DNA from: Lacticaseibacillus kribbianus
GTDB taxonomy: Bacteria; Bacillota; Bacilli; Lactobacillales; Lactobacillaceae
Direction of reading: 5' to 3'
DNA length: 64,000 bases
Assembly (NCBI RefSeq): GCF_020180945.1
Contig: NZ_JAIPUL010000001.1
Span: 1,116,001-1,180,000, forward strand
Each line of letters starts with the position of its first letter. Position 1 is the first letter of the stretch. Under the pieces are notes generated by a model that saw nothing but the letters and a program-made list of their open reading frames with translations, searched no databases and was not told the origin of the DNA. The translations under genes were made by a program, and so were the position numbers. This document shows positions 55,684-64,000 of the stretch, piece after piece.

Positions 55684-57399
55684 CTAGTCCTCGATGGCCG
55701 CCTTCTGTTGGTTGATGGCGGCGAACAGGGCCGGATTGAACTTCGGCGTGCGGTCGTAGTAGTACAGACCGTTGCGCTCCTGCTCGACGTCGTACAGCTG
55801 CGTGTAGCAGAAGCTTGAGACATGCGGGTTGCCCAGCAGCACGTCGGTCAGGCCGCGGTAGCGCGCAGCGAAGGCCGCCTCATCGGTCGGCTCGCCGTAG
55901 CCCCAGGCCACCCCTTCCGCGGTGCCAGGCGCCCACTTGATGCCGCCGTACTCGGACACTGCAATCGGCAGTCCGGCCTGGTAGTGCTGGCGGGCGTCGT
56001 GCTCGTCCCAAAACTCGCCGTTGGCCGCCTGGGTGCCATCAAAGTGCTGCGCCATGACGGCCGGATCCTGCGTGTAGTCGTGCACGTCGTACAGGTCGGT
56101 TGCGCCGTGGTAGTTGCCGCTGGTGTCCACGCACGGGCGCGTGGCGTCCAGTGCCTTAGTCGTCTGGTACACCAGGTTGATGGCGTCCAGCCGCTGCGGT
56201 CGGCCATCGATGTCCCAAGTCTCGTTGAAGGGGCACCAAGTCACGATGCTCGGGTGGCTCCAGTCGCGACGCACCGCCGCCAGCCACTCGGGCAGGAAGT
56301 GGTAGAGCCCGTCGGCGTCCGCCATGTCGATGCCCCAGCTGGCCATCTCGCCCCAGACCATGTAACCCGCGCGGTCGCAGTGGTAAAGGTAGCGCGGATC
56401 GACGACCTTCTGGTGCAGCCGTGCGCCGTTGAAGCCGCAGGCCACGCTCAACGCGATGTCGGCCTCAAAGGTCGCGTCGTCCGGTGCGGTGAAGATGCCG
56501 GTGGGGTAAAAGCCCTGATCAAGCACCAGCCGCTGGAACACGGACTTGCCGTTCAGCAGGAACTTGTAGCCGTCGTAGCGCACGTCGCGCAGCCCGAAGT
56601 AGCTGGTCACCCGGTCGGCGCCAAAAGTCAACACGACGTCGTACAGCCGACCGTGGCCGATCTCCCACAGGTGTTTTTCGCTCAGCGGCACACCGATGGT
56701 CAGCGTGCCTGCGGCCTGGTCAACGTGCGCCTCCCCCACGGGTTTTCCGGCGTAGGTCACCGCAACGTCAAGCGAGGCCTCACCGGCCAGGGTCAGCTGA
56801 ACGGTCACCGACTGGCTGGCAACGTCCGGCACGAAGCGGACCGTCTCGACGTGGGTCTGGGGCAGGAACTCGAGCCACACCGTCTGCTAGATGCCGGTGG
56901 TGCGGGTGTAATCGCAGCCGTGCGACTGGTAGAGGTGGCTCTGCTTGCCACCGGGCTGCTTGCCAGAGCGCACGTCGTCTTGCGCGCAGACCACCAAGGT
57001 GTTGTCACCCTCGTGCAGCTGGGCCTGAATGTCGCAGGCGAACGGCACGAAGCCGCCGGTGTGTTCCGCCACCTGAACCCCGTTGACGAACACGGTGGCG
57101 CGGTAGTCGACGGCGCCAAAGTGCAGGCGCACGGTGTCGGCGAGCTGGGCCGCGGTCACCGTGATGGTGCGCCGGTACCAGACCGCCGCCATGAAGTCGA
57201 CGTTGCCGATCCCGCTCAGCGTGCTCTCCGGCGGGTAGGGCACGGTGATCTGGCGGTCGAAAGGCGCCGCGGTTTCGAAGTGGCGGTCGCGACCGGAGTC
57301 GGCCGCATCGATCAGAAAGTCCCACTGGCCGTTCAAGTTCTGCCACTGGGCGCGTTGCATCATCGGTTCTGGAAATTCTGGACGAGGAATTGTCGTCAT
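55684..57399 (-). pseudogene. GH2 beta-galactosidase/glucuronidase interrupted by an amber codon
   Basis: Two pieces in one frame, 57399-56887 and 56886-55684, give a 571-residue GH2 enzyme broken at codon 171 by TAG (56889-56887). The context TTGI-stop-QTVWLEF fits a lost Trp (TGG to TAG). The N-terminal jelly roll (MQRAQWQNLNGQWDFLID), the acid/base Glu in WCPFNETWDID and the nucleophile region AVSEYGG are otherwise intact. Substrate may be a beta-galactoside or beta-glucuronide. A recent nonsense change, suppression or a sequence error are the options. Divergent from an AraC regulator that probably controlled it. Confidence 0.85.
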
Positions 57400-57426
57400 G
57401 TTACACCTCCGCTTTATTTTGCCTCT

Positions 57427-57454
57427 AGTTTAGCGTATGCTGGGGCACAGACAA
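57427..57454 (-). promoter_or_regulatory. Promoter of the GH2 gene
   Basis: -35 TTGTCT (57454-57449), 16 bases, -10 TAAACT (57432-57427). Confidence 0.6.
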
Positions 57455-57467
57455 GAGTGCATTCGCT
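57432..57467. promoter_or_regulatory. Inverted repeat, candidate AraC-type operator
   Basis: AGCGTATGC (57432-57440) and GCATTCGCT (57459-57467) form an 8-of-9 inverted repeat with an 18-base gap, spanning the GH2 -35 element between the divergent genes. Confidence 0.5.
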
Positions 57468-57489
57468 TACAAAAGTGAGGAATAACCGC

Positions 57490-58311
57490 ATGAAGGAATT
57501 AATCTACAGCTTCCTGCCCAGCCAGTTTTCGGACCCCAGCCTGTTTTGGATTGAGCTGGCCGGCGTCACCTACCCGTTCCCCTCGTACCATGTCGAGCGG
57601 ACACACTCCGCCGTCTTTTGCCTCGAGCACGTCGACGCAGGGCGCGGCATCCTTGAGGCCGACGGCGTGCGCCACCTGGTCCAGGGCGGCGACACTTACC
57701 TTCTGCCGGCGGGCGCCGACCACCGCTACTGGTCGGACCCCCACGACCCGATGCAAAAACGCTGGGTGAACTTCGCCGGCGCCGTGCCGACGCAGCTGGT
57801 GACCGCCTACCAGCTCAGCGGCCAGGTCGTTTTCCCCGGGCTGGACGTCGGGCCGCAGCTGGACGCGCTGCACCGCCAGTGCGCCGACGCGACGCTGACG
57901 CCGGTCGCCCGCGGGCTTGAGGGCTCAGTCGCCGTGCACCGGCTGCTGTTCAGCCTGCACGCCTTCGCCGCCACCCACGCCCGCGTCCAGCAGGCGCCAG
58001 AGGCCGCGGTGGTACGCGGTTACCTGGACAATCACTTAGAGGAACCAGTCACCATCGCGCAGCTTGCGGCACTGGTCAGCTTGTCGCCGTCGCAGCTGAC
58101 CCGCCAGTTCAAGCAGGCCTTCGGGACCACCCCCTACGCCTACCTGCAGGACCGGCGGCTGGCAATGGCCAAAACGCTGCTGCGCCACACCAGCCTACCG
58201 GTAACCGCCATTGCCAGCCGGCTGAGCTTCGCCGACGCACACTACTTCTCCAACGCTTTTACCAAGGCGGTGGGCGTGCGCCCCGGTGAGTGGCGGCGGC
58301 GAAGCGACTGA
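57490..58311 (+). CDS. AraC-family sugar-responsive regulator
   Basis: A 273-residue regulator. N-terminal cupin-like sensor (about 1-150; EADGVRHLVQGGDTYLLPAGADHRYWSD) and a C-terminal double helix-turn-helix (PVTIAQLAALVSLSPSQLTRQFKQAFGTTPYAYLQDRRL ... RLSFADAHYFSNAFTKAVGVRPGEWR). Likely activates the divergent GH2 gene when its sugar is present. Start at 57490 gives the full sensor domain; a GAGGA site lies upstream. The long upstream frame is a shadow of the GH2 gene. Confidence 0.9.
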   Translation: MKELIYSFLPSQFSDPSLFWIELAGVTYPFPSYHVERTHSAVFCLEHVDAGRGILEADGVRHLVQGGDTYLLPAGADHRYWSDPHDPMQKRWVNFAGAVPTQLVTAYQLSGQVVFPGLDVGPQLDALHRQCADATLTPVARGLEGSVAVHRLLFSLHAFAATHARVQQAPEAAVVRGYLDNHLEEPVTIAQLAALVSLSPSQLTRQFKQAFGTTPYAYLQDRRLAMAKTLLRHTSLPVTAIASRLSFADAHYFSNAFTKAVGVRPGEWRRRSD

Positions 58312-58360: not shown

Positions 58361-59281
58361 TTACTTGGTGATCGTGGTGCCGACGACCTCGGTGTGCCCG
58401 TCCTGGTAGGCGAACACCGCGCCGAAGTGGGTCGGATCATCGTTCCAGTCGGGCACGGGGCCGCCGGCGAAAAACAGGCGCTTGGCCTCAAGCTCGCCTT
58501 GAATCGAGTCCTTGGTGAACACCGTCACCCCGGCAAGCTCGGTCTGAAGCGGGTAGCCGGTGCGCGGGTCCATCAGGTGGTGGTACTTCTTGCCGTCCTT
58601 GACCAAAAAGCGCTCATAGATGCCCGACGTCACCGCCGAGCAGGCCGGCAGCACCGTGCACCCGAGGTCGGTGTGCCGCGACTTGCTGGGGTCTTGCACG
58701 CCGATCACCCACTTGCCGTCGGTCCGCCGTGGCGAGTCACCGACGAACAGCAGGTTACCGCCGAGGTCGATGATGCCGGCGGCGACGCCGTACGCGCCCC
58801 ACAGCGCGCGAATCTGGTCGGCGATGAAGCCCTTGGCGATACCGCCGAGGTCAAGCTCCATGCCTGGGTGCGCCAGGCGCACGGTGTGGGCCGCGTCATC
58901 CAGCACCACCCCGTCCGGGTCGCTCAGCGCCAGGCGCGCCGCGATGGCCAGGTCACTCGGGACGTTGGCGCCGGTGAAGCCGATCTTCCACAGCTTGACA
59001 AGGGGGCCGATCAGCGCGTTGAAACCAAAGCCCTCGCGGCTGGCCGCGGCCGCCTGGCGGATCAGGCCGTAGGTGGCGCTTGACACCGCCACCGCGGCCG
59101 TGCCGGCGGCGTGGTTGACCGCCATCACCTCGGACTGGGCGCGGTTGACCGTCAGGCGGTCCTCCTCGCGGTTGATCAGCGTGGCCGCCGCGTCGAGCGC
59201 CGAATCGTCGAGCTCGCCAAACACGGTCAGGTTGATGCGCGTCCCCAGGGCGTGCAGCGTCTTAACCCGCTTCGTCGTCAT
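58361..59281 (-). CDS. apbE: FAD:protein FMN transferase (ApbE), cytoplasmic
   Basis: A 306-residue ApbE enzyme that moves FMN from FAD onto Ser/Thr of target proteins. Features: the FNALIGPLVKLWKIG block, ELDLGGIAKGFIAD, IDLGGNLLFVG, SGIYERF and the metal-site HHLMDPRTGYP. There is no signal peptide or lipobox, so it should act in the cytoplasm, unlike most ApbE proteins. Its ATG overlaps the stop of the PAS gene by one base (TGATG), strongly coupling enzyme and likely substrate. Ends at a two-way terminator. Confidence 0.94.
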   Translation of the reverse strand: MTTKRVKTLHALGTRINLTVFGELDDSALDAAATLINREEDRLTVNRAQSEVMAVNHAAGTAAVAVSSATYGLIRQAAAASREGFGFNALIGPLVKLWKIGFTGANVPSDLAIAARLALSDPDGVVLDDAAHTVRLAHPGMELDLGGIAKGFIADQIRALWGAYGVAAGIIDLGGNLLFVGDSPRRTDGKWVIGVQDPSKSRHTDLGCTVLPACSAVTSGIYERFLVKDGKKYHHLMDPRTGYPLQTELAGVTVFTKDSIQGELEAKRLFFAGGPVPDWNDDPTHFGAVFAYQDGHTEVVGTTITK

Positions 59282-60018
59282 CACAGGTCGTATGTGAACG
59301 GCCCAGGCTTGCCGGCCGTGGCCGGGCCCTCGGAGGCGCCAGTCGTCGCGTCGGCCTTCGGTGCCGGGGCCGCCTCTTCTTCAGACGCGCCACTGGTGGC
59401 GTCAACCGCCGGAGCGGCCTCTTCCTCGGACGCACCGCTGGTCGCATCGGCCTTTGGTGCCGGGGTCGCTTCCTCTTCGGAGGCACCGCTGGTCGCGTCG
59501 GCCTTCGGTGCCGGGGCTGCCTCCTCTTCGGAGGCGCCGCTGGTCGCGTCGACCGTGCCGGTCTTGCCATCGGCCTTGGAGGCGCCGGTGGAGGCATCGG
59601 ACCAGCCGCCGTTCTCGTAGGCCGTCAGGATTGCCTCTACGCTGCCCGTGAACTCGATGGTGCCAAGGTACTCGCCATCGACGTCGCGCAGCGCGTAGTA
59701 CTGGATGTAGACGCGGTGACCATGCATCATCAGCGGGCGGGCCACGAAGTCGCGGGAGCCGTCCTTGAAGCTGTTAATGATGCCCATCACCACCGGCAGC
59801 ACGCGGGCCGGGTGGCATTCCGCCACGGTTTCGTTCAGCTGGTCAACCGTGCGCACGTGCTCGCGGTTAGGCTTGTTGGAGAACCAGGTGAAGTGGTCTG
59901 TGTGGTCGATCAGGTCGATTTCGAAGGGAATGGTGCTGAAAATCTGCTGCACCTCGGTCAGCGTCAGCCGGCCGGTTGGGAACTGGATGTAGGTGCCATC
60001 GTACTCTGGTTTACTCAT
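59281..60018 (-). CDS. PAS-domain protein with six-fold flavinylation-like tail
   Basis: A 245-residue cytoplasmic protein. Residues 1 to about 135 form a PAS domain resembling the DUF438/PAS_10 type (TVAECHPARVLPVVMGIINSF, YALRDVDGEYLG). Residues 141-229 hold six copies of D-A-[ST]-[ST]-G-A-S (141, 157, 174, 191, 206, 223), spaced by acidic Ala/Pro/Glu linkers, mostly in 17-residue repeats. ApbE targets carry D-x-x-[ST]-G-A-[TS], with FMN on the last residue. The next gene is apbE. A multi-flavin carrier tail is inferred. Start after AGGAGG. Confidence 0.88.
   Translation of the reverse strand: MSKPEYDGTYIQFPTGRLTLTEVQQIFSTIPFEIDLIDHTDHFTWFSNKPNREHVRTVDQLNETVAECHPARVLPVVMGIINSFKDGSRDFVARPLMMHGHRVYIQYYALRDVDGEYLGTIEFTGSVEAILTAYENGGWSDASTGASKADGKTGTVDATSGASEEEAAPAPKADATSGASEEEATPAPKADATSGASEEEAAPAVDATSGASEEEAAPAPKADATTGASEGPATAGKPGPFTYDL
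59332..59598 (-). repeat. Coding tandem repeat (51-bp units) in the PAS gene
   Basis: Near-identical units encoding DATSGASEEEAAPAPKA and variants. Shorter or changed units flank the core. Copy number may vary between strains by slippage. Confidence 0.85.
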
Positions 60019-60067: not shown

Positions 60068-60097
60068 GGAAAAAGCCCAGTCCTCTGGGCTTTTTCC
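60068..60097. terminator. Terminator after the RibF-like gene
   Basis: GGAAAAAGCCCAG-TCCT-CTGGGCTTTTTCC, overlapping the stop codon of the RibF-like gene. The downstream PAS-apbE pair may depend on read-through or its own weak promoter. Confidence 0.85.
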
Positions 60098-60834
60098 TAG
60101 CCGCCGACCGCCTGAATCTGGGGTTGACGGCGCAAGAAGCGCAATTGCGTGCAGCCGGCTGGCAGCCGCAGGATGTTGTCGGCGACCCGAACGCGCACCG
60201 GCCGTCCGCCTTGATCCACCGCCTCGTAGCAGCCATTAGGAGGTAACTGCTGCGAGGTCGGATCGGCGATGACGTAGGGGTGGCCCAGAAGCGCCGTCGC
60301 GGCCGCGAAGTTTCCGGCCGCAATCAGGCCGCGAATCCGCGTGGACGACACCTTCTGGCGCGCCGCAGTCAGCTTCGGCACCACCGTGGTGGCGAAGCGT
60401 CCGGCGGCAAGCGCCGGCAGTGCGGCCGCCGTGGTGGTGCCGCCGCGGCCGAACGTGTAGTCGAACCCGGCCACCACCCGCACCGCACCGAGCGGCACCA
60501 GGCAGTCGGCCACGAAGGCCTCTGGGCTCAGGTTTGCGAAGGCCGAATCGAAGGTGGCCACGTACAGGTGGTCGACCCCGAGCTCTGCCATCAGCTCAGC
60601 CTTTTGGGCGATGGTGGTCAGGTACGGCACGGGGCGCTTGGCGAACAGCGCCGAGGCGTGCCGGTCGAAAGTCAGGACCGACAGTGCCACGCCCGCGTCG
60701 CGTGCGGCCGTCCGAGCAGCCGCGATCACGCGCTGATGGCCGCGATGCACCCCATCGAAGAATCCAAGCGCCAGTACGCAGGGCGCGTGCAAGGGCACCG
60801 GGGAAGCGGTGAGGTTGAGCATCGTCACGTCCAT
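60097..60834 (-). CDS. RibF-like FAD synthetase lacking the riboflavin kinase domain
   Basis: A 245-residue paralogue of RibF. The adenylyltransferase half is complete: CVLALGFFDGVHRGHQRV, VVAGFDYTFGRGG and KVSSTRIRGLI. The kinase half, with GxTLGFPTANI in full RibF, is missing; only about 60 unrelated residues follow. It would make FAD from FMN and ATP. This suits the adjacent ApbE, which uses FAD as FMN donor. Start follows AGGAGGGG. Only 17 bases separate it from pyruvate oxidase, so they likely share a transcript. Confidence 0.85.
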   Translation of the reverse strand: MDVTMLNLTASPVPLHAPCVLALGFFDGVHRGHQRVIAAARTAARDAGVALSVLTFDRHASALFAKRPVPYLTTIAQKAELMAELGVDHLYVATFDSAFANLSPEAFVADCLVPLGAVRVVAGFDYTFGRGGTTTAAALPALAAGRFATTVVPKLTAARQKVSSTRIRGLIAAGNFAAATALLGHPYVIADPTSQQLPPNGCYEAVDQGGRPVRVRVADNILRLPAGCTQLRFLRRQPQIQAVGG

Positions 60835-60851: not shown

Positions 60852-62641
60852 CTACTTGGCCTTCTTGCCGCTTTTCTTGGCGTCCGCCTTCGCAAGCTGC
60901 GCGTCCTTGGCGTCCTTCAGGAACGCCCGGAACGGCTTAATGGCCTGCGCATCGTACTTGGCCACGAACTCATCGATCTGCTTTTGGTCCTGGTAGGCCG
61001 GGTCGATGAACATGTGCTGCGTGGTGAACGGCATCTTGTGCGTCAGCTTGACGTCGATGACCACCGGCAGATCGGTGTTCTTCGCGTCGTCGATGGCCGC
61101 CTGAAACTCGGCCTTGTCGTGCACGGTGTAGGCCTTGGCGCCCATCCCCTTGCCGATTGTCGCCCAGTCCGTGTCCGGAATATCAACCCCGGAAAGTGGC
61201 TGGTGCGTGTCGTCGCGCTGCTCGGCCTCGATGAAGCCCAGCGTTGCGTTGGAGAACACGACGTTGATGATGTGCAGGCCGTACTTGACCTGGGTCAGGA
61301 TTTCCTCGCACAGCATCGCGTAGCCACCGTCACCGGACAGGGAGTAGACGTCGCGATCTGGGTAAACCACCTTGGCCGCAATTGCGGCAGGGAGGCCGTA
61401 ACCCATGGTCGCATACTTCCCGGAGGTCGTCCACTTCATCGTGTGCTTAATGTCCAGCAGGCGCTCGAAGTTGATGTTGACGTTGCCGACATCGATGGCC
61501 CAGACCGCCTTGTCGGACGCGGTCTTGTTCAGCACGTCGAAGATTGGCTCCGGGCGAACCGGGGACTCGCTGGAATCCTTGAAGCTGTCCTGCCACTCGG
61601 TCCAGTTCTTCTTGTTGGCAATGCAGGCCTCATAGAACGGTGTCGGCTTGGACTCCGTGCCCGCCTTGTAGATCGCCTTCAGCGCTTCCTTGGCGTCGGC
61701 CAGGATGGCGACGTCGTTGTGGCGGCGCTTGCCCAACTTCGTGCTTTCGATGTCGATCTGGATCACCTTGGCGTTCGGGTTGAACAAGAGGCTTGCGAAC
61801 GGCACATCGTTGCCGACCCACAGGATCAGGTCCGTGGCCATCGCGGCCTCAACACCAGGCTTTGGTGCGACACGGCCGGTAGAGCCGAGGTAGGCCGGGT
61901 AGTCCTCGTCGAGCACCCCTTTGGCCAAAACGGAGGAGACCAGAGGCATCTTGTACTTCTCGGACACCTTGATCAGCTGCTTGCGGGCGTGCTTGGCACC
62001 GAGCCCGAAGTAGATGATCGGGCCCTTGGCCTGCTTGATCAACGCGACGGCTTCTTCGATGCGCACCGGATCCGGCTGAATCGCGTAAGGCGTGATCTGC
62101 GTGTTGGCGTTGGAAACGTAATTGTCCTTGATCTGTGCCCAGCCGAAGTCCTTGGGATGGTGACCACGGCCGGCCCCTTCTTCTCGTAGGCCTCCTGAAT
62201 CGCCTCGTCGATCACCTTCGGCAGGCTCTGGGCGGTCATGACGGTGCGGTTCCAGACCGCGACGTCGTTGAAGATCGGTTCCTCGTTCATCGCCTGGAAG
62301 AAGTCGATGTTCATGTTCTTGGACGGCACCTGGGCGACGATGGCCAAAACCGGCACGCGGTCGATCTTGGCGTCGTACAGCCCGTTGAGCAGGTGAACCG
62401 CGCCGGGGCCGGCGGAACCGAAGCAGACACCAATCTGGCCGGTGAGCTTCGCGTCCGCGGCGGCGGCGAGAGCGCCAGCCTCCTCGTGACGAACCTGAAT
62501 GAACTTGATCTTGTCCTGCTGGTTGTGCAGCGCGTTCATCGTGGAGTCGAACGAGCCACCAGGGTAACCGTAGATGTGATTGACACCCCAGGATTCAATG
62601 ACCTTGAGGACGGCGTCGGAGCCGCTGATTGTTTGTGTCAT
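60852..62641 (-). pseudogene. pox: Pyruvate oxidase with a one-base deletion
   Basis: Two frames join to a 596-residue thiamine-diphosphate/FAD pyruvate oxidase that makes acetyl phosphate, CO2 and H2O2. The N-terminal part (GSDAVLKVIESWGVNHIYGYPGGSFDS) runs to TIP near codon 162; the frame is then lost at about 62153-62156. One added base restores KDFGWAQIKDNYVSNANTQITPYAIQPDPVRIEEA. The C-terminal part keeps the ThDP motif GDGGYAMLCEE...NVVFSNA. Total length 1790 bases is one short of a multiple of three. Mutation or an error at the GGG run. The RBS and ATG are good. Confidence 0.88.
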
Positions 62642-63026: not shown

Positions 63027-63113
63027 CAATAACAGCGCAAAATAAAAGGGCACCATCTAGCACCCGTTCTTCGCTCCAAGCGACCAAACCTAAAACAAAG
63101 CGAGGTATTAGTG

Positions 63114-64000
63114 ATGTCCAACCTTGATTCTACGCTCTCTGTCCTGGGATTGCCATACGAGAACATTCATGTAACCGCAGTTTACGACGGCTACCGAGGC
63201 CGGGGCAAGCGGCGCCTTCAGTACCACGTCATTGCGTGTGATCTCACTTACCACCGCGATACTTGTCCTCACTGTGGTGAAGACGCGTTGCGACCTAACG
63301 GTCATAAGGCGACACACATCCGCATTCAATCACTCAGTCAACTTCCAACGCTTCTTGAGCTTTCCAAACAGCGCTGGCTCTGCTCGGCCTGCCATCGTAC
63401 CTGTTCCGCAGAGACACCGCTTGTGGCCTACAATGACACGATTGCCCACTCAATCAAGCAAACAGTCCTACAGCTTGCCAGGCAGTCCCTCCCCGAAGCA
63501 GTGATTGCCAAAAATACGGGTATCTCTGCAGCGACAGTTCGACGAGAACTCAAGTCCCATCTCCACCATCGCAGTCGCCCGGAGTTGCCGACCAACCTAT
63601 GTTTTGACGAGTTTCGATCAACTCAGAATATGATGTCCTTCATCTGTATTGATGGCGATACCCATCGATTGGTGAAGCTTCTTGGCGACCGTCTGAATAA
63701 GACTATCAAGGACTTCTTTCTTGCCAACTACTCCACGGCAGAACGCGCCGCCGTTCAGACCATCACAATGGACATGAACGCCTCCTACCAAGCTTTTATC
63801 CACCAAGTTTTCCCCAATGCCCAGCTCATCATCGATCGCTTCCATATCGTTCAGTTGCTCGGTCACGCGGTGGACACTGTGCGCGTCGCAACGCTTAAGC
63901 AGCTCGACGACAAAACGAGCCGAGTCTACCGTATTCTTAAACATCAGTGGCGGCTCTTCCACAAGGCCGCACCGGACGCGATACACACCAAATACATGCG
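63114..64000 (+). CDS. ISL3-family transposase, partial
   Basis: First 295 codons of a transposase. A Cys-rich N-terminal zinc region (CPHCGEDALRPNGHK ... RWLCSACHRTCS, about residues 45-100) precedes a helix-turn-helix and the DDE core. The first Asp is in LCFDEFRS near residue 165 and the second in ITMDMNASY near 220, followed by IIDRFHIVQLL. No stop before the window end, so the final Glu is not seen. ATG at 63114 follows GAGGT. Confidence 0.9.
   Translation, partial: MSNLDSTLSVLGLPYENIHVTAVYDGYRGRGKRRLQYHVIACDLTYHRDTCPHCGEDALRPNGHKATHIRIQSLSQLPTLLELSKQRWLCSACHRTCSAETPLVAYNDTIAHSIKQTVLQLARQSLPEAVIAKNTGISAATVRRELKSHLHHRSRPELPTNLCFDEFRSTQNMMSFICIDGDTHRLVKLLGDRLNKTIKDFFLANYSTAERAAVQTITMDMNASYQAFIHQVFPNAQLIIDRFHIVQLLGHAVDTVRVATLKQLDDKTSRVYRILKHQWRLFHKAAPDAIHTKYM

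Follow-up and report, generated by a model that had tools for sequence, protein, structure and literature searches.

Why does a bacterial PAS protein end in a tail that repeats one seven-residue motif six times, and why is the adjoining gene an apbE? These questions are raised by a locus in a stretch of 64,000 nucleotides of the Lacticaseibacillus kribbianus genome, which is called the window here. The PAS gene (59281..60018, minus strand) encodes 245 amino acids and is assigned by its homologues and by a PAS_10 domain at residues 24-123 (59650..59949, minus strand; E 4.5e-13). PAS_10 is the sole Pfam match of the protein, so that no repeated FMN-bind domains were found in it; by sequence, the nearest solved relatives of the domain are 3cax and 2qkp. 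The tail, residues 137-245 (59284..59610, minus strand), is acidic, rich in Ala, Pro and Glu, and probably disordered. Its pLDDT in the AlphaFold model is below 50, but the evidence for disorder is weak because the underlying alignment is shallow (eight sequences), and the mean pLDDT of the whole model is a modest 51.

The preliminary description of this locus had claimed six D-A-[ST]-[ST]-G-A-S motifs within residues 141-229, and all six could be located, on the minus strand: DASTGAS at residues 141-147 (59578..59598), DATSGAS at 157-163 (59530..59550), 174-180 (59479..59499), 191-197 (59428..59448) and 206-212 (59383..59403), and DATTGAS at 223-229 (59332..59352). Each of the six is a copy of the ApbE-substrate motif D-x-x-[ST]-G-A-[ST], as that motif is defined in PMC12052999. 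The protein closes with the peptide KPGPFTYDL (59284..59310, minus strand), similar in L035-L037, in the first copy of L038 and in L039, which is a possible docking peptide. Downstream of ApbE, L038 has a further PAS-tail gene, which has diverged and carries three motifs (L038:5819-6436, also L081:9717-10334).

The apbE gene follows directly, as was also stated earlier. Its ATG at 59281 lies inside a TGATG overlap of one base with the PAS gene; the open reading frame spans 58361-59284 (minus strand) with a GTG start just upstream of that ATG, and with this GTG the overlap is four bases. The product, a FAD:protein FMN transferase (58361..59281, minus strand; PF02424, E 2e-63), aligns with 7esa, which we take to be Listeria FmnB, including DLGGIAKGF, DLGGN and YHHLMDPRTGYP, and the same alignment covers the conserved ApbE core with H-H-x-x-D-P-x-T-G. 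Neither a lipobox nor a hydrophobic N-terminus was found in it, in line with the original remark that it lacks a signal peptide. Among 38 ApbEs near motif-bearing PAS genes none has a lipobox and one has a hydrophobic N-terminus (L039, where the start is probably over-extended). Among 27 ApbEs with no PAS or FMN_red nearby, mostly the best-scoring ApbE matches of the genome search, 25 have a lipobox and 21 a hydrophobic N-terminus. In one genome that is 65% complete (G064) the sole ApbE detected is a lipoprotein form. Converging on apbE in the window is an open reading frame at 55822-58311 (plus strand), whose C-terminal part (57500-58311) resembles, by eye, an AraC-type regulator.

Could the six motifs be a chance product of a low-complexity tail? 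In 20,000 shuffles the 109-residue tail held on average 0.011 motifs and never more than one, as compared with six in the real tail, although shuffling ignores repeats copied from each other. Regarding such copying, every one of the 29 codon differences counted between pairs of the six copies at their D, G, A and S positions is synonymous, which counts against fresh copying of the repeats. A genome-wide search with a DNA pattern for D-A-x-[ST]-G-A-[ST] returned 19 matches, versus 3 for the reversed control, and 11 of the 19 fall in two PAS tails, that of the window protein and that of an FMN_red-PAS paralogue at G000:C1:216514-216710. The fused FMN_red-PAS paralogue stands elsewhere in the genome (L091); judged by the domain matches at the window locus, FMN_red is neither fused to nor near the PAS gene there.

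The preliminary description knew of no PAS protein with a multi-site tail, and on this point it has to be revised: such proteins occur widely in the order, and one of the family, LjPAS, has been published (PMC4500961). A PAS match was obtained in 69 of 151 Lactobacillaceae genomes; in the loci that were read, tails with the strict motif were found in 46 genomes and tails with an S-A-S variant alone in 8. Tails carry up to seven motifs, and the motif is conserved while the spacers of the tail vary between relatives. The 111 tails selected for holding the motif or its variant contain 255 strict motifs, where shuffles give 0.43. Most of the relatives that were read are FMN_red-PAS-tail fusions, often adjoining apbE; in other families of the order ApbE typically comes together with FRedA and FRedB-PAS-tail, as seen in best-scoring and hand-picked loci. 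Outside Lactobacillales 95 other genomes matched, and the 29 loci of the phylum that were read among them are all PAS_10 proteins of about 400-450 amino acids with no tail or motif. The sole motif-tailed case outside the order is L040, from a genome labelled as a Bifidobacteriaceae MAG, and is possibly mis-binned or transferred. Two more architectures may be recorded here: an FMN_red-PAS-PAS-PAS protein with four motifs at L258:6497-9145, which together with L040 shows repeated PAS plus tail units, and a PAS gene at L060:6334-7017 whose tail, by eye, seems to be encoded in a different frame from the PAS domain, which is not so in L051-L053.

The distribution of ApbE follows that of the tails. 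A full-length ApbE is present in all 54 genomes with tails, as against 24 of the 97 others (Fisher p ~3e-22, a figure that ignores relatedness). Any full-length ApbE, secreted or not, was counted; loci and matches were assigned to genomes by hand, 14 genomes with only short ApbE-like matches were scored as without, and four PAS matches (one each in G056, G070, G124 and G148) are left out, G056 standing as a genome with no motif. Adjacency points the same way. The loci yield 173 distinct PAS proteins, after removal of 4 cut by locus ends, and apbE is near 50 of the 93 with the strict motif, 14 of the 18 with the variant only and 2 of the 62 with neither. Where at least 3 kb of flank was available, 40 of 76 genes with the motif or its variant have an apbE within 4 kb versus 2 of 29 others, a count thinned for identical C-termini only; the remaining 36 of the 76 have no apbE within that distance.

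Homologues next to apbE that lack the motif had been named in advance as evidence that would speak against flavinylation, and the outcome is mixed. Here the original proposal stands in part. In L072 and L157 the PAS protein is without the motif and the neighbouring FMN_red carries it; the other 14 near apbE have only D-x-x-x-S-A-[ST]. In variant tails of this kind Gly is replaced (L047, L056, L058, L130, L135-L137, L140, L222, L232, L234, L236, L240, L244, L246 and L248, most of them near apbE), and on the PAS tree the distinction between SAS-only tails and the rest takes 10 changes. The variant is possibly a flavinylation motif in its own right; either Ser is accepted in place of Gly or the tails function without modification. 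According to PMC12052999, flavinylation fell to about half with a Gly-to-Ala change and by 10 to 55% with Thr-to-Ser; here the final residue is Ser in 248 of 261 strict motifs. In our opinion the S-A-S variant is the main feature that the flavinylation reading leaves without explanation. Nevertheless, motif conservation, co-occurrence with ApbE and gene order give good support to the original claim that the motifs are ApbE flavinylation sites and not a linker; the comparison favours real sites, and we predict with high confidence that FMN is attached to the tail of the window protein.

If the tail carries FMN, what is it for? The genes upstream on the same strand, which are absent from the preliminary description, offer a lead. 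Next to the PAS gene is a stand-alone FAD synthetase (60097..60834; FAD_syn domain, PF06574, E 8.8e-44) in which no flavokinase domain was matched, and beyond it a pyruvate oxidase gene (60852-62641) that is split into two overlapping frames, an N-terminal piece of 200 amino acids (62039..62641, minus strand) and a C-terminal piece of 404 (60852..62066, minus strand) with a Lys-rich C-terminus. The gene is a single frame in L035-L039, and the split in the window assembly is either a real lesion or an assembly error. An apparent transposase gene, by eye, occupies 63110-64000. The nearest solved relative of the one-frame oxidase of L035 is the pyruvate oxidase 1pox, presumably the L. plantarum enzyme. 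L035-L039 share the gene order pyruvate oxidase, FAD synthetase, PAS-tail, ApbE. In L040 pyruvate oxidase is accompanied by a seven-motif PAS-PAS protein (L040:3032-4741) and ApbE, and in L049 and L056 the oxidase, ApbE and PAS genes are arranged differently. Altogether PAS-ApbE adjoins pyruvate oxidase at nine loci, which belong to two well separated PAS lineages and differ in gene order. In a tree of 69 of the 109 PAS domains (every second row of fused proteins omitted) this neighbourhood takes 4 changes, 2 of them forced by strong branches, although the details of the tree are unsure because it has few columns and some long branches. We had considered at least two origins of the neighbourhood and weakened this to two lineages, as one of the two forced changes could be a gain and the other a loss.

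Two further ideas about this neighbourhood were downgraded. The first is a single operon from pyruvate oxidase to ApbE. The FAD synthetase and PAS genes are separated by a perfect, terminator-like inverted repeat of 13 nt (60068..60097), a similar one is seen by eye in L035, and in L037-L039 an opposite-strand gene stands between the same two genes. Given the repeat and the opposite-strand gene, PAS-ApbE may be transcribed as a unit separate from the oxidase. A promoter scan gave 0 sites versus 0.9 expected and a terminator scan 8 versus 3.7 expected. The second is the FAD synthetase as a dedicated supplier of FAD for ApbE. In L174-L178 the same type adjoins pyruvate oxidase in stretches that contain neither a PAS nor an apbE gene, and three of these five genomes (G082, G109 and G133) are without a full-length ApbE match; since the pairing persists there, the FAD synthetase is tied to the oxidase.

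The pyruvate oxidase is the likely partner of the window PAS protein, on the grounds of adjacency and of cases in which the tail is carried in cis. Among the 30 best-scoring pyruvate oxidase loci, 10 oxidases, from four genus codes, themselves end in one to three motifs. All 10 come from genomes with a full-length ApbE, as do 14 of the 20 untailed ones (compared by eye). The tailed oxidases have a PAS gene in none of their 10 stretches, which cover about 1.5 kb on each side (less at contig ends, longer in L065); conversely, none of the nine PAS-linked oxidases has a motif of its own, and all nine adjoin a PAS-tail gene. Other proteins bear the motif too, such as two by-eye fumarate-reductase-like proteins at L066:5078-9494, each with DATSGAS plus DAVSGAS. 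Furthermore, the last 20 residues of the PAS-linked oxidases hold 6-8 Lys or Arg in six cases and 2 or 3 in three, and those of oxidases not linked to a PAS gene hold up to 5. As a mere suggestion, the Lys-rich C-terminus of the oxidase may dock on the acidic PAS tail.

Based on this, we would put at even chances that the window PAS protein is a cytosolic arm of tethered FMN which accepts electrons, as we infer, from pyruvate oxidase or from FRed. The adjoining ApbE would transfer FMN from FAD to as many as six D-x-x-[ST]-G-A-S motifs, in each case to the last Ser, so that a soluble PAS head would have a flexible arm with several covalent FMNs. The PAS head, perhaps with the acidic tail, would dock on a flavin enzyme, in most of the relatives read an NADH:FMN reductase (FRedA/FRedB) to which it is usually fused, and in the lineage of the window likely the neighbouring pyruvate oxidase. 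The tethered FMNs would then be an electron acceptor at high local concentration, and electrons would pass from the reduced flavin of the enzyme to the arm and on to O2, with formation of H2O2, or to another acceptor. We infer four of these steps for the window protein, namely attachment, docking, the path of the electrons and the final acceptor.

The strongest argument for electron transfer over pure sensing is that the same kind of tail is fused to two unrelated flavin enzymes. Sensing is nevertheless the alternative that fares best, unlikely as we consider it. The tail would be flavinylated here as well, but the redox state of FMN, together with the PAS head, would set the assembly or the activity of FRedA/B or pyruvate oxidase with no bulk flow of electrons. 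PAS domains are commonly sensors. LjPAS of Lactobacillus johnsonii slows the assembly of the H2O2-forming FRedA/B (Valladares 2015, PMC4500961), and such a slowing of activation fits a regulator equally; the LjPAS transcript also changes more than threefold with aeration, the abstract and results of that paper disagreeing on the direction. However, tails that sit directly on pyruvate oxidase, or on FMN_red as in L072, have no PAS domain to signal through, and up to seven copies suit capacity better. The next possibility, an improbable one in our opinion, is a covalent reservoir: the tail would keep FMN near FMN_red, where it would be bound as the ordinary flavin of the site, and would thus serve retention, not electron transfer. 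Six or seven sites exceed the need of one pocket, and some pyruvate oxidases are tailed even though pyruvate oxidase uses FAD, not FMN. In favour of a reservoir, the tail sites of FMN_red are close to its non-covalent FMN pocket (PMC11334425), and FRedA and FRedB, when purified separately, were without flavin. Finally, we reject as very improbable a low-complexity linker with chance or relic motifs and an apbE that serves another substrate: the tail is indeed Ala/Pro/Glu-rich and probably disordered, the strict motif is absent from some tails and the genome has other possible ApbE substrates, but motifs kept while spacers vary, synonymous-only differences in the D, G, A and S codons and an ApbE in 54 of 54 tail-bearing genomes speak against it.

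Returning to the tethered arm as electron acceptor, a more general form can be put forward tentatively, with a chance somewhat short of even. In Lactobacillales a disordered multi-FMN arm would be a portable unit, attached in cis to pyruvate oxidase or NADH:flavin reductase or supplied in trans by a PAS adaptor, and this arm would be the true cytosolic electron acceptor of these H2O2-linked enzymes. If so, the published in vitro work on LjPAS missed a native cofactor.

How does this relate to known systems? Among the papers listed in searches of open-licence literature, judged by title and the start of the abstract, PMC4500961 alone describes the PAS family. LjPAS shares with the window protein the PAS_10-plus-tail family and a link to a flavin enzyme, FMN_red fusions being noted by its authors (PMC4500961). 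The PAS gene of L053 is near-identical to that of LjPAS. Both published qPCR primers match L053, and L053 alone among 248 loci; of the cloning primers, the forward one agrees in its gene part with L053 and L051, and the gene part of the reverse one is present in the sister locus L265 and not in L053, so that L053 matches three of the four primers tried. L053 and L265 both have three motifs and both end in DTSSGASEY; LjPAS itself thus very probably has three motifs, as against six in the window protein. Within its 17 kb, L053 showed neither an apbE nor a pyruvate oxidase gene, nor an FMN_red near the PAS gene. The main text of PMC4500961 contains neither the word "covalent" nor "ApbE". LjPAS was produced there in E. 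coli, and none of the plasmids in the passages covered carries apbE, so the published preparation was probably unflavinylated. Flavinylation of the tails may explain the effect of LjPAS on an H2O2-forming enzyme, and a PAS family of lactic acid bacteria that has received little study is predicted to consist of multi-flavin proteins.

The Lactococcus FMN_red proteins of PMC11334425 are similar in having a cognate ApbE and a C-terminal extension that is unstructured and bears one or two motifs, and their flavinylation by that ApbE in E. coli, only with Ser or Thr at the site, was demonstrated; what is described in the passages covered does not include a PAS domain, a pyruvate oxidase or a six-site tail. 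Both PAS_10 and ApbE matches are present in the L. lactis control genome. The Klebsiella system (PMC12052999) likewise combines a cytosolic ApbE without signal peptide and a soluble substrate, but the substrate is fumarate reductase and not a multi-site PAS tail. For the neighbouring oxidase the nearest solved relative is 1pox; ten relatives found here end in flavinylation motifs, and some pyruvate oxidases are thus predicted to have covalent FMN tails. Multi-flavinylated proteins (PMC8238504; also PMC10339131) carry several covalent FMNs per polypeptide, as predicted for the window protein, but those of PMC8238504 do so on repeated FMN-bind domains and are generally predicted to be extracytosolic, while the window protein has bare seven-residue motifs in the tail of a protein without a signal peptide. 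As the flavinylation surveys of 2021 and 2024, judged by their titles and the passages covered, centre on extracytosolic proteins, a cytosolic multi-site form that is widespread would extend their scope. In principle, such a portable arm is comparable to the swinging arms of lipoyl and carrier proteins, except that the arm here would be made of bare ApbE motifs.
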